DNA of 61,215 nucleotides from an uncultured Bacilli bacterium. Its GTDB lineage: Bacteria; Bacillota_I; Bacilli_A; RF39; UBA660. A program made the position numbers and the translations under genes. Each line of letters opens with the position of its first letter. Position 1 is the stretch's first letter. The notes beneath the pieces were generated by a model. The model was not told the origin of the DNA. It ran no database searches and was given only the letters and a program-made list of their open reading frames with translations. This document shows positions 45,574 to 56,207 of the stretch, piece by piece. Location of the stretch: contig CANQPC010000005.1 of assembly GCA_947625625.1 (NCBI GenBank), positions 1-61,215 of the forward strand. Reading direction: 5' to 3'.

Positions 45574-46980
45574 ATGGTTAACTGTCATAAAAAATGTACT
45601 AATAAGATAGATACAAATTGCTGCTTTCCCTCACCTATTTCACAAATATTTGTTCCTCCTGGAAAAGTAGGACCTACAGGTCCAATGGGTCCTACGGGGC
45701 CAGAAGGAAGAGGAATTAATATTTTAGGTTCTTATAGTAATTTAGAAGAACTTACTGAAAATCATCCGACTGGTAATATAGGAGATGCTTATATAGTTGG
45801 TGATGATTTATATATATGGTCTTCGAATAATAGTTGGAGTAATGTCGGCACTATTAGAGGACCTAAAGGCGATCCTGGTGTGCGAGGAGAACAAGGTATT
45901 CAAGGAGAAATAGGACCCCAAGGAGAAAGAGGTCCTCAAGGCGAGCAAGGCATTCAGGGTATTCAAGGACTACAAGGGGAAAGAGGTCCACAGGGAGAAC
46001 AAGGTCCGATGGGAGAGCAAGGACCAATGGGAACTCCCGGCACTAGCGTAACTATTTTAGGTTCTTATGATACTCTAGAGGCTCTTAAAAATGATAATCC
46101 TATCGGCAAAGTTGGAGATAGCTACTTAGTTGGCGGTAATCTATATGTATGGTCGGAATCAAAACAAGAGTGGATCGACGTGGGACTTATAAAAGGTCCC
46201 AAAGGAGACCAAGGGATTCAAGGAATGGCCGGACTGCAAGGAGAAAGAGGACCGCAAGGAGAACAAGGGCCTCAGGGAATTCAGGGCATTCAAGGACCGA
46301 AAGGCGACCAAGGAATTCAAGGAATACCTGGACCTCAAGGACCTATAGGACCACAGGGAGAACAAGGACCACAGGGCCCTAAAGGAGAGATGGGAGAAAT
46401 GGGATTTCCTGGGATTCAAGGGCCAAGAGGAGAACAAGGACCGAAAGGAGAACCTGGTATCGAAGGACCCCAAGGAATGCCCGGACCATTAGAAATACCG
46501 ACCGCTTACTTCGTAACATTTAACGAAGGATTTCCCAATGGTGGATTTGCTGTTCCTTCCAATACAAGAATACCTATCGATTTAAAAGCATACGATACAA
46601 CTGGCGATTTTGTTCTCAATAGCGATACCAATACAATTACCTTTCTCCATAGCGGCATTTATCTTATCAATTTTACCGTCGAAGCGCGCGTTATTAATTC
46701 TACTCTCTTTAATGAAGATTTAGATATCGTATGTGTCGGTTTTAAAAAAGTTGATGAAGAAACCGTATATGCAGGAGCTAGTGTTTGGTGTGATTTACAG
46801 CCGGGAGTCGCGGTAGTAGCAAGGGGAATTGTTCCGACAGTTTTAGATAATGAAGAATTTGAAATTCTTAATTTAGGTCTCAATACAATTTACCTTAATA
46901 GTCCTGGTAAAAATCGTATCTATTCAGAGTCTTCGTTTGTCAATACTGTTCTATCGATGACAATTCAAAAGTTAAAATAA
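45574..46980 (+). CDS. Collagen-like BclA-type surface/exosporium protein
   Basis: A 468-residue protein with a cysteine-bearing N-terminus (residues 1-28, no signal peptide), three Gly-X-Y collagen segments (about 30-46, 96-156 and 208-304, rich in GPQGEQG and GIQG triplets) and a C-terminal beta domain (about 308-468) of the C1q/TNF-like trimerising type. Two copies of a 48-residue module ([13 protein letters not shown]...[26 protein letters not shown]...[13 protein letters not shown]) interrupt the collagen. Such proteins form hair-like filaments on spores (BclA) or phage fibres. Lack of a signal peptide and nearby spore genes favour a spore surface role. It is monocistronic. Confidence 0.82.
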
Positions 46981-50143: not shown

Positions 50144-50431
50144 CTATAAATTTTCTAATAACATGATAACTTCACTCTTGGGTAAATTTTTTTCATATTC
50201 GAGAATTTTATTTACAAATTCATCATGAGGTATTGCTAATTCTTCTAGCATACTCGTAATTACTTTTTCAATATTACTGACACCATATTTAATTAAAAAC
50301 TTGATATTTAAATTTATATCGACATAGTTATCATTAATCAGTTCTAAAACATAATTATTTTTTTCTCGTAAGATTTTATTATATGTCTCCATCGAAACAT
50401 ACCTAAGTAAATAGTCGGCATTCTTATTCAA
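50144..50431 (-). CDS. Small helical hypothetical protein behind a T-box-like attenuator
   Basis: A 95-residue helical protein (NKNADYLLRYVSMETYNKIL..., ...KNLPKSEVIMLLENL) with no signal or membrane segment and no recognised family. I favour the TTG at 50431, eight bases after AGAGG; the GTG at 50440 overlaps that site. It lies 14-23 nt after a T-box-like terminator, which would make it the regulated gene. That is odd, because T-boxes normally control amino-acid genes. It might be a remnant left where another gene was lost. Confidence 0.5.
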   Translation of the reverse strand: MNKNADYLLRYVSMETYNKILREKNNYVLELINDNYVDINLNIKFLIKYGVSNIEKVITSMLEELAIPHDEFVNKILEYEKNLPKSEVIMLLENL

Positions 50432-50453
50432 TTTTATCACCTCTAGTAATATA

Positions 50454-50556
50454 AAAAGATGATACCTAAAAGGACGAAACTATATCGTGGTATCACCTTT
50501 CTCATGTAATATTAGTATTTTATTAGACTTAACGTCGTTAATATTACTGCTTCTTT
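50454..50556 (-). promoter_or_regulatory. T-box-like attenuator without recognisable specifier stem
   Basis: On the minus strand an antiterminator pairs AAAGG with CCTTT and ACGA with TCGT around the bulge TGATACC. The alternative terminator pairs GGTGATACC (50490-50498) with GGTATCATC (50459-50467) and is followed by T5. This is the T-box layout, but the bulge has TGA where TGG is invariant. Upstream only a simple stem GTAATATTA/TAATATTAC (about 50508-50550) fits in the 124 nt after the previous gene; no stem I motifs are seen. Confidence 0.6.
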
Positions 50557-50568
50557 ATTATCATCTTA

Positions 50569-51297
50569 TTATCTTTTTCTTTCATCGATACACTTTAATA
50601 GTCTTTTAACATTTGTATCAGGATTAGTTAAAATATCGTGACGATAGTATTCTTCCCCAGCATCCATTCTTATTTTGTAGCGGTTAGCATAATTATTTAT
50701 TCCATTCCACAAGCTTTCTCTCTTATCATTAAAATATTCACTCGAAAGAGAAACAGCATAAGATGGCTCAATTTTGACAAGGCTATCGATAATTTTTTGT
50801 CTTGTCTTTATAAGGCCGCCATCGAAATCTTTATTTTGAATTTCACCATTAAAAATGCGATCAAAGAGAAAATTACTTCTATAGTTAAAGCGATAATATG
50901 GATTAGTAGAAAGTTCTCTTTCGAGACCGATAATTCCCTCTTCGAAGACAAGTGAATTTTTTATAACACTCGGATCAAAGTAACTGATATAGTCCAAAGA
51001 ACTTTTCTTCTCTTTCATATCCATTTGCATTAGTGTTAAACATAAACTGGGATCTTCTCTGGCAATTTCCGAATATTTAATTTCTTCTGGGTACATAGCA
51101 CATATTGCATAAGCAATATCAGGGTTTTCACTCAAGTACTTATATGCTCCTTTTAACATTCCCTTATTTGGAAGATTAACTCCCTCCATGATAATTGATT
51201 CAATAGCCTTAGTTAAAATATATTTATAGATATTGGCATTTAAATCTTGCATTTTATATAAATCATCCATACTAGGCATATATATTTTCTTTTCCAT
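50569..51297 (-). CDS. Hypothetical protein downstream of frr
   Basis: A 242-residue soluble helical protein, not recognised. Notable stretches are 'MLKGAYKYLSENPDIAYAICAMYPEEIKYSEIAREDPSLCLTLMQ', which reads like a short helical-repeat region, and a basic C-terminus. A strong AAGGGGG ribosome site precedes the start. It follows frr by 26 nt on the same strand, so it is probably co-transcribed with the ribosome recycling factor; that does not show a shared function. Confidence 0.6.
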   Translation of the reverse strand: MEKKIYMPSMDDLYKMQDLNANIYKYILTKAIESIIMEGVNLPNKGMLKGAYKYLSENPDIAYAICAMYPEEIKYSEIAREDPSLCLTLMQMDMKEKKSSLDYISYFDPSVIKNSLVFEEGIIGLERELSTNPYYRFNYRSNFLFDRIFNGEIQNKDFDGGLIKTRQKIIDSLVKIEPSYAVSLSSEYFNDKRESLWNGINNYANRYKIRMDAGEEYYRHDILTNPDTNVKRLLKCIDERKR

Positions 51298-51962: not shown

Positions 51963-52575
51963 AAATAACTAATGGTAAATATTTATATAATAATTAAAGA
52001 CAACTAGAATTATCAGAATTATAAGTTACTCCAAGAGAATTTACATATACTTCAATCTTAGCTTCACTTACTTTAATCCAATTTTTATCTTTCCAGTACC
52101 AGTTAAAGTCATCTTTATTACTCAAATAAGAATTTTCAAAAATAATCGATTTAACGTTAAATAGTTTATATGGAATTCTATTAACAGCATAATTATCTTT
52201 AAAAGTATAGACACTTCCATCTAATTTTGAATATATTCTTTCAGTATCATAATCTCTTGCATAAAAGCGAACATGGCTTTCTTTTAAAGGATAAATATTA
52301 TTGAATTTGCTTACGATATTAAGTTCATTAGTTAGTTCATCTAAAGTAAGATAGCCGGGCAATAAAATTTCATAACCCATATAATTCGAATTACCACCGG
52401 CATTATGATGATTACTATATACTATTTTACTTACTACGCCATAATAGCCCATTTCATATGCTCTTCTTTGAAGGCGAAGAAGACTCTCATCTCCCAAGCC
52501 ATTACCATAAGTATCGGAGGTCCTTGTCATGTATACTTTAAGGCCATGACTTTCGTAGCGACATTTTTCATACAT
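51963..52575 (-). pseudogene. Truncated duplicate of the amidase gene 3' end (613-bp repeat)
   Basis: This segment repeats 54488-55100 with no indels (constant offset of 2525 bp) and only a few substitutions. It contains an open frame (51994-52575) equal to the last 193 residues of the amidase with one residue change noticed (Phe to Ser near the end). It lacks the signal anchor, the Ig-like domain and the first zinc ligand region (DPGHGG), so it cannot be active. The right-hand edge stops exactly at the ATG of 'MYEKC', where tRNA-Cys trailer sequence begins. Confidence 0.85.
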
Positions 52576-54487: not shown

Positions 54488-55100
54488 AAATAACTAATGG
54501 TAAATATTTATATAATAATTAAAGACAACTAGAATTATCAGAATTATAAGTTACTCCAAGAAAATTTACATATACTTCAATCTTGGCTTCACTTACTTTA
54601 ATCCAATTTTTATCTTTCCAATACCAGTTAAAGTCATCTTTATTACTCAAATAAGAATTTTCAAAAATAATCGATTTAACGTTAAATAGTTTATATGGAA
54701 TTCTATTAACAGCATAATTATCTTTAAAAGTATAGACACTTCCATCTAATTTTGAATATATTCTTTCAGTATCATAATCTCTTGCATAAAAGCGAACATG
54801 GCTTTCTTTTAAAGGATAAATATTATTGAATTTGCTTACGATATTAAGTTCATTAGTTAGTTCATCTAAAGTAAGATAGCCGGGCAATAAAATTTCATAA
54901 CCCATATAATTCGAATTACCACCGGCATTATGATGATTACTATATACTATTTTACTTACTACGCCATAATAGCCCATTTCATATGCTCTTCTTTGAAGGC
55001 GAAGAAGACTCTCATCTCCCAAGCCATTACCATAAGTATCGGAGGTCCTTGTCATGTATACTTTAAGGCCATGACTTTCGTAGCGACATTTTTCATACAT
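54488..55100. repeat. 613-bp direct repeat, intact copy
   Basis: This is the parent copy of the duplication at 51963-52575. It includes the last 194 codons of the amidase gene and 31 bp beyond its stop codon. Confidence 0.85.
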
Positions 55101-56207
55101 TGAAACGGTAAGATTCATTTCTTTTTCATAAATATATTCGTTACTAGCTCCGGGATCACTTCCGCCGTGGCCGGGGTCAATTAGAATATCATACTGGTAA
55201 GAAAAGTCAGAAATATCTATTTTTATTTCATCAGTGTCATAGTTAAAAGTCACTAACCTATTACCTACTTTAGCTCTTTTAATTTTATCGATATAAGCAA
55301 GTTTACTTATTAATTTTTCTTTGCCATTAGAGTCAATATAGACAGTATAACTTCCATTTTCAACTTCTGATAAATCAATATTTCCGTTATACTTATTATT
55401 TCCTATATTTGTTAGTTCAAAAAGATAATTAGTATTTCCCTCTAAAGTTAACTGGTAATTACCATTATTATTCTTCTTATACCCTTCGATATAAAAACCT
55501 TTCGAGGTAAAATTATTACTGGTAACAGTATTATCGTAGTCAGTTACGACAAGTTCTTTCTTAACTTCTTTATTTTCATTATTATCGACACGTAACACTT
55601 CTTTAGGCTTATTTACAGTAACTTTTCTCTCGGTACTAGAAGTATTATTGCTACTATCGCTAACTTTATATATTAGCTTATACTCTCCCTCTTTGGAAGT
55701 ATCAACTTTACCTTCGATTATTATTTTATCAGTTAAATCACCATCATAATTGTCAGTAGCGGTTGCTCCTTCCTCTTCATATTCTTCGGTAGTAAGGCAT
55801 GTAATACTACTGCTACCATTTAAGGTAATCGTAGGTTTCGTACTATCGACAACAGTGACAGACCTCGAAGAAGTATACTTTACATTATCGAGAAGAAGAT
55901 AATATTCTATTTGATATTTACCTAAAACATTTAAATTTAATTTACTCGAATCAACTTTTACTTTATCGGTCATATCGATATTGTCGACTAAAACTTTATA
56001 TTTTGGTTCTTGATATTCACTACCAAATTCTATTTTATAATTTTTTTCTTCGTTAAAGACAAATATTACACTATGTTCGTTTCTTTTTTCTTTATATATA
56101 CGAAATGATATTATAGATAATATCGATAGCACTATAATAACGATAATTAAAACAAAAATAATTATTTTCTCTTTTTTGTGACTGCTAAATATTTTCTTAA
56201 TAGACAT
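54519..56207 (-). CDS. Membrane-anchored N-acetylmuramoyl-L-alanine amidase with Ig-like domain
   Basis: A 562-residue cell-wall hydrolase. A basic start and one transmembrane helix (about 14-34) anchor it. Next is a DUF5011/cadherin-like Ig region (about 120-200: DSTKPTITLNGSSSITCL...EEGATATDNYDGDLTDKI...YKVSDSSNNTSSTERKVTV). After a linker comes the Amidase_3 catalytic domain beginning YDILIDPGHGGSDPGAS (zinc His) with the Glu of YEKEMNLTVS, and NHHNAGG later. It cleaves the amide between muramic acid and the stem peptide. Its 3' third is duplicated downstream. Confidence 0.88.
   Translation of the reverse strand: MSIKKIFSSHKKEKIIIFVLIIVIIVLSILSIISFRIYKEKRNEHSVIFVFNEEKNYKIEFGSEYQEPKYKVLVDNIDMTDKVKVDSSKLNLNVLGKYQIEYYLLLDNVKYTSSRSVTVVDSTKPTITLNGSSSITCLTTEEYEEEGATATDNYDGDLTDKIIIEGKVDTSKEGEYKLIYKVSDSSNNTSSTERKVTVNKPKEVLRVDNNENKEVKKELVVTDYDNTVTSNNFTSKGFYIEGYKKNNNGNYQLTLEGNTNYLFELTNIGNNKYNGNIDLSEVENGSYTVYIDSNGKEKLISKLAYIDKIKRAKVGNRLVTFNYDTDEIKIDISDFSYQYDILIDPGHGGSDPGASNEYIYEKEMNLTVSMYEKCRYESHGLKVYMTRTSDTYGNGLGDESLLRLQRRAYEMGYYGVVSKIVYSNHHNAGGNSNYMGYEILLPGYLTLDELTNELNIVSKFNNIYPLKESHVRFYARDYDTERIYSKLDGSVYTFKDNYAVNRIPYKLFNVKSIIFENSYLSNKDDFNWYWKDKNWIKVSEAKIEVYVNFLGVTYNSDNSSCL

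Follow-up and report, generated by a model that had tools for sequence, protein, structure and literature searches.

The locus raises the question of whether a T-box-like leader with an altered tRNA-binding bulge is a decayed T-box that now acts as a fixed attenuator, or a switch that reads another signal, the two alternatives of the original prediction. The element lies at 50569-50453 on the minus strand of the window (the whole 61,215-nucleotide stretch of DNA that was analysed), flanked by genes for 242-aa and 95-aa proteins. Comparison with relatives strongly supports the first alternative: with a probability of about 0.9, the element is a decayed Phe T-box leader, a non-sensing relic that would act as a fixed terminator or attenuator.

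Position, fold and gene context of the element

The 242-aa gene (51297-50569) and the 95-aa gene (50431-50144), both on the minus strand, are separated by ~137 nt. The locus is composed of the following features:

50569..51297, minus strand: 242-aa upstream gene, neighbour of frr, from the ORF list; homologues are likewise placed in most examined congeners
50531..50569, minus strand: remnant of the stem I 5' strand; in the profile of the lineage's Phe T-boxes it corresponds to model positions 2-40
50503..50530, minus strand: 28-nt residue of ~112 model positions, from the alignment with intact leaders
50506..50547, minus strand: plain 9-bp hairpin GTAATATTA/TAATATTAC left from the truncated stem I, in the minimum free energy (MFE) and centroid folds
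50469..50500, minus strand: T-box antiterminator (AAAGG/CCTTT, TGATACC bulge, ACGA/TCGT), from the sequence and a lineage profile match of 30.6 bits
50493, minus strand: G replaced by A in the bulge that pairs with the tRNA acceptor end, so that TGG reads TGA; intact leaders have TGGTACC
50453..50500, minus strand: intrinsic terminator with T tract, predicted at -16.2 kcal/mol; 3' arm GGTATCATC at 50466-50458
50144..50431, minus strand: 95-aa gene with a TTG start after AGAGGTG; orthologues in 8/10 other congeneric genomes, pN < pS

The minus strand at 50500-50469 reads AAAGG-TGATACC-ACGA...TCGT-CCTTT, in which a helix A1 of 5 bp, a bulge of 7 nt and a helix A2 of 4 bp reproduce the geometry of a T-box antiterminator. 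The CCTTT is followed by GGTATCATCTTTTT. In the terminator, the 5' arm of the antiterminator pairs with GGTATCATCTTT at 50466-50455, next to the T run. The predicted T-box geometry of both structures can thus be read in the sequence at 50500-50455, as can the TGA in place of TGG, with its A at 50493. The MFE fold of the leader consists of the terminator and the small upstream hairpin (z-score -2.69). In intact relatives the terminator energies run from -12.4 to -22.5 kcal/mol, which brackets the value of the element. The canonical antiterminator fold, at -3.8 kcal/mol vs -16.2 kcal/mol for the terminator, is predicted to be unable to compete with it.

The gene that follows encodes 95 residues, as foreseen, and its function likewise stays unassigned: searches of Pfam, NCBIfam, PADLOC and PDB sequences returned nothing credible, and AlphaFold gave an all-helical model of low confidence (mean pLDDT 60.7). 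Since its frame is intact and pN (0.22-0.26) is lower than pS (0.53-0.70) against the orthologues, with pS near saturation and the values not branch-specific, the gene is probably still functional. The gene and its orthologues encode a conserved protein of ~95 aa, predicted to be all-helical, that belongs to no known family. In this bacterial family the gene lies behind the Phe T-box and ahead of pheS, and it persists where pheST has gone. Two other observations concern the neighbourhood. On the minus strand, a 193-aa ORF (51994-52575) repeats the C-terminal part of a 562-aa ORF (54519-56207) almost letter for letter; the two flank cysS and might stem from a recent duplication of part of the gene, or from one made in assembly. 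On the plus strand, positions 45574-46980 encode a protein of 468 aa that contains long collagen-like repeats (Gly-X-Y).

Homology to intact Phe T-box leaders

The Rfam T-box model RF00230 scored the element at 17.7 bits (E = 0.11), whereas its gathering threshold is 93; this is a match at a permissive cut-off, far under the family threshold. Two further weak Rfam matches in the region at that cut-off, STnc40 and a snoRNA, were dismissed as chance. Elsewhere in the genome, the Rfam search found seven T-boxes at E <= 0.001, one of which sits inside the window at 18103-17897. A nucleotide profile built from 16 intact Phe T-box leaders of the lineage matched the element in two pieces: 50502-50452 (model positions 153-204) at 30.6 bits and E = 9e-9, and 50569-50531 (model positions 2-40) at 6.4 bits and E 0.24 over the whole window, the latter weak alone. 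The two pieces are collinear and in the correct order in the leader, and the best profile score among 1000 dinucleotide-shuffled leaders was 2.1 bits.

Scanning genome contigs for homologous loci gave 0 loci with a single-sequence query and 13 loci with an alignment query. The source organism is an uncultured member of the Bacilli; those relatives that carry a name are gut-type MAGs under the labels Bacillales, Tenericutes or Bacilli. Seven of the eight congeners that encode the 95-aa orthologue carry a full T-box leader before the small gene (96-113 bits), with stem I, AGAGAG, a GGTG-type apical motif, GAATTCACCC, TGGTACC and a terminator. GAATTCACCC holds the specifier UUC, for Phe. In these seven congeners pheS comes next after the small gene, with pheT behind it wherever the examined stretch is long enough; both names were assigned from the translations on the basis of the known families. 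Seven further family members, in which pheS was recognised by the beginning of its reading frame, have an identical arrangement (88-110 bits), and the GTDB records L048, L050 and L051 have TGG and the specifier motif ahead of the small gene and pheS. The congeners G002 and G003 lack the small gene, and a similar T-box stands immediately before pheS. In L049, pheS is present after the small gene with no T-box, on a contig that starts only 176 nt upstream; positions 1-176 of this record have no Rfam match and contain a promoter-like stretch with hairpins, possibly a different leader or an assembly edge. Because relatives carry a Phe T-box before the small gene and pheS or directly before pheS, the leader is, by ancestry, the pheST T-box. 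The comparison that had been proposed for the locus thus places intact Phe T-boxes with a homologous antiterminator at the same position.

Alignment with these leaders reveals what has been lost. Between the two profile pieces, ~112 model positions are represented by 28 nt (50503-50530), and hence the stem I apex, the specifier loop and the linker are gone; stem II/III are also missing. The 28 nt are still similar to AAG(T/C)CTAATAAAATA-CTAATAT, the stem I 3' strand, and contain no GAATTCACC-like specifier loop. The remnant of the stem I 5' strand retains AGTAATATTA, common to intact leaders. The flanks of the deletion have collapsed into the plain 9-bp hairpin. The leader is indeed too short for a normal stem I, as had been noted; its stem I is truncated by internal deletions and not simply absent. 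This truncated form was found in no relative examined.

The altered bulge and the departure of pheST

The second G of TGG is replaced by A at 50493, which turns the UGGUACC bulge of intact relatives into UGAUACC. The original prediction held that the terminator partner had changed to match; this part does not stand, as T50462 of the terminator arm is also T in relatives with an intact TGG, where it forms a G-U wobble. An identical GGTATCATC arm faces TGGTACC, with the wobble at this position, in L014, L015, L031 and L032. A single transition removed the CCA-pairing site and converted a G-U wobble of the terminator into an A-U Watson-Crick pair.

Across 243 genomes of the family, AAGGTGATACCNCG occurs at two sites, and the TGG form in 237/243 genomes, mostly several times per genome. 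The second TGA site (L070 1300-1700, G037:C19, minus strand) is a near-full T-box of 81 bits, probably with a Tyr specifier, as suggested by GAATTACAAA. Downstream of it, ~370 nt hold no noteworthy gene; next are a small ORF and a serine recombinase, in that order. The best tyrS match of G037 lies on another contig. Both TGA leaders are orphaned, and because neither any longer precedes a synthetase gene, the second one gives independent support for TGA as a mark of decay. The idea of the TGA T-box as a functional variant was rejected after the search of the 243 genomes, in which the sole other site is also an orphan leader. Separately, a further AAGGTGATACC in the source genome (contig C10) has no antiterminator, terminator or T-box match around it and was set aside.

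In the source genome, pheST is absent from the locus, and the 95-aa gene is followed by tgt and pyrG. The only pheS found in this genome is on contig C24, behind its own T-box, which has TGGTACC and, in the specifier loop, TTTC as the Phe specifier. The encoded PheS is 78% identical to that of the congener G005 and 35-38% identical to those of other congeners, and the C24 pheS belongs to a different lineage. In G005 (L022, 110-3585), the other pheST lineage stands directly behind the ancestral T-box and small gene, and its PheS is about 40% identical to those of its congeners, as if pheST had been replaced in place with the leader retained. Where pheST still follows the small gene, the T-box is intact (7/7 congeners). 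G010, a second congener without pheST after the small gene, has no T-box, only a short hairpin and a T run; this genome is 75% complete, and its pheS may simply be unassembled. A small tree of Frr and the 95-aa protein grouped the source genome with G009 and G010 (0.95), and one or two losses of pheST are possible because the order within this group is uncertain (0.59).

Origin and class of the element

These comparisons suggest the following course for the decay of the Phe T-box leader. In the ancestral leader, uncharged tRNA-Phe would have paired at two sites, its anticodon with the UUC specifier of stem I and its NCCA end with UGGU of the bulge. This would have favoured the antiterminator and allowed transcription of the small gene, pheS and pheT. 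In the lineage of the source genome, pheST is gone from the locus, and a different pheST with its own T-box lies elsewhere. Deletions have taken the stem I apex, specifier and linker from the leader, and its UGG has become UGA; we infer that the loss of pheST came first and relaxed selection on the leader. The remnant is predicted to fold into the terminator by default and is expected to stop transcription constitutively, in part or in full, after the frr/242-aa unit and before the 95-aa gene. Because the specifier, linker and UGG are missing, a tRNA would find no recognised anchoring site in the leader. That the antiterminator helices and terminator are well kept could mean that the decay is recent, or that selection maintains more than a plain terminator.

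In T-boxes, UGGN of the bulge pairs with tRNA NCCA (PMC7778990), and in all known varieties a specifier decodes the anticodon (PMC7583486). The likeness of the element to the class I transcriptional T-box (RF00230) of tRNA-Phe and pheST is one of common descent: the stem I 5' strand, antiterminator helices and terminator stand in equal order and place before the same small gene. It differs in having no specifier loop, apex, linker, UGG or following pheST. T-boxes with a short stem I and the specifier in the apical loop exist (PMC7583486), and they share with the element a short stem I hairpin followed by an antiterminator; they keep the specifier and UGGN, however, whereas the element has no recognisable specifier or stem II, has UGAU in its bulge, and owes its shortness to deletion from a long form. 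A plain intrinsic terminator resembles it in the stable hairpin, T tract and lack of a ligand, and this is most likely its present working mode, although its arms are of T-box sequence and a weak antiterminator can still be formed. The antiterminator and terminator are both formable from one common strand, and the orthologous position and homology to intact T-boxes identify a T-box relic. Despite this descent, the element should be recorded as a T-box relic and not as a T-box, because it falls below the RF00230 gathering threshold (17.7 bits vs 93), has no stem I with a specifier codon, carries UGAU where a UGGN complementary to NCCA would stand, and precedes no amino-acid or aminoacylation gene. 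We found no description of such a relic in the open-access literature.

Other readings fit the same locus less well. The second original alternative, a truncated leader that alternates between antiterminator and terminator under a non-tRNA signal (a protein, a small RNA or translation of the upstream gene) as a conditional attenuator of the 95-aa gene, is improbable: the antiterminator pairs and terminator are both still formable and the 95-aa gene is intact, but the specifier, linker and UGG are gone, no sensor domain exists beyond a plain hairpin, the antiterminator is weak against the terminator, and no relative has the truncated form. A truncation of an intact leader by assembly or sequencing error is still less probable. 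The source genome, the single one of its species in the comparison, is a 48-contig draft of one strain with 91.8% completeness and 3.9% contamination, which leaves room for such an error; against it, point changes including TGG to TGA run along the remnant, the leader has intact genes on both sides within a 61-kb contig, and pheST lies elsewhere with its own T-box. We consider it most improbable of all that the element is a functional minimal T-box that senses tRNA with UGA for UGG and without a classical specifier. The antiterminator/terminator geometry and the UGA T-box of G037, with its near-complete stem I, would be in keeping with it; however, the G037 leader is likewise an orphan, known T-boxes are described with a specifier (PMC7583486) and UGGN:NCCA pairing (PMC7778990), and the 28 nt leave neither a specifier loop nor stem II/III.

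As a decayed Phe T-box leader, the element offers a snapshot of riboswitch decay once the controlled genes no longer adjoin, in which the sensing parts are lost and the terminator is kept. It also cautions against taking every T-box-like motif with a changed bulge for a new type of switch. The intact leaders in relatives would let the course of this loss be traced.
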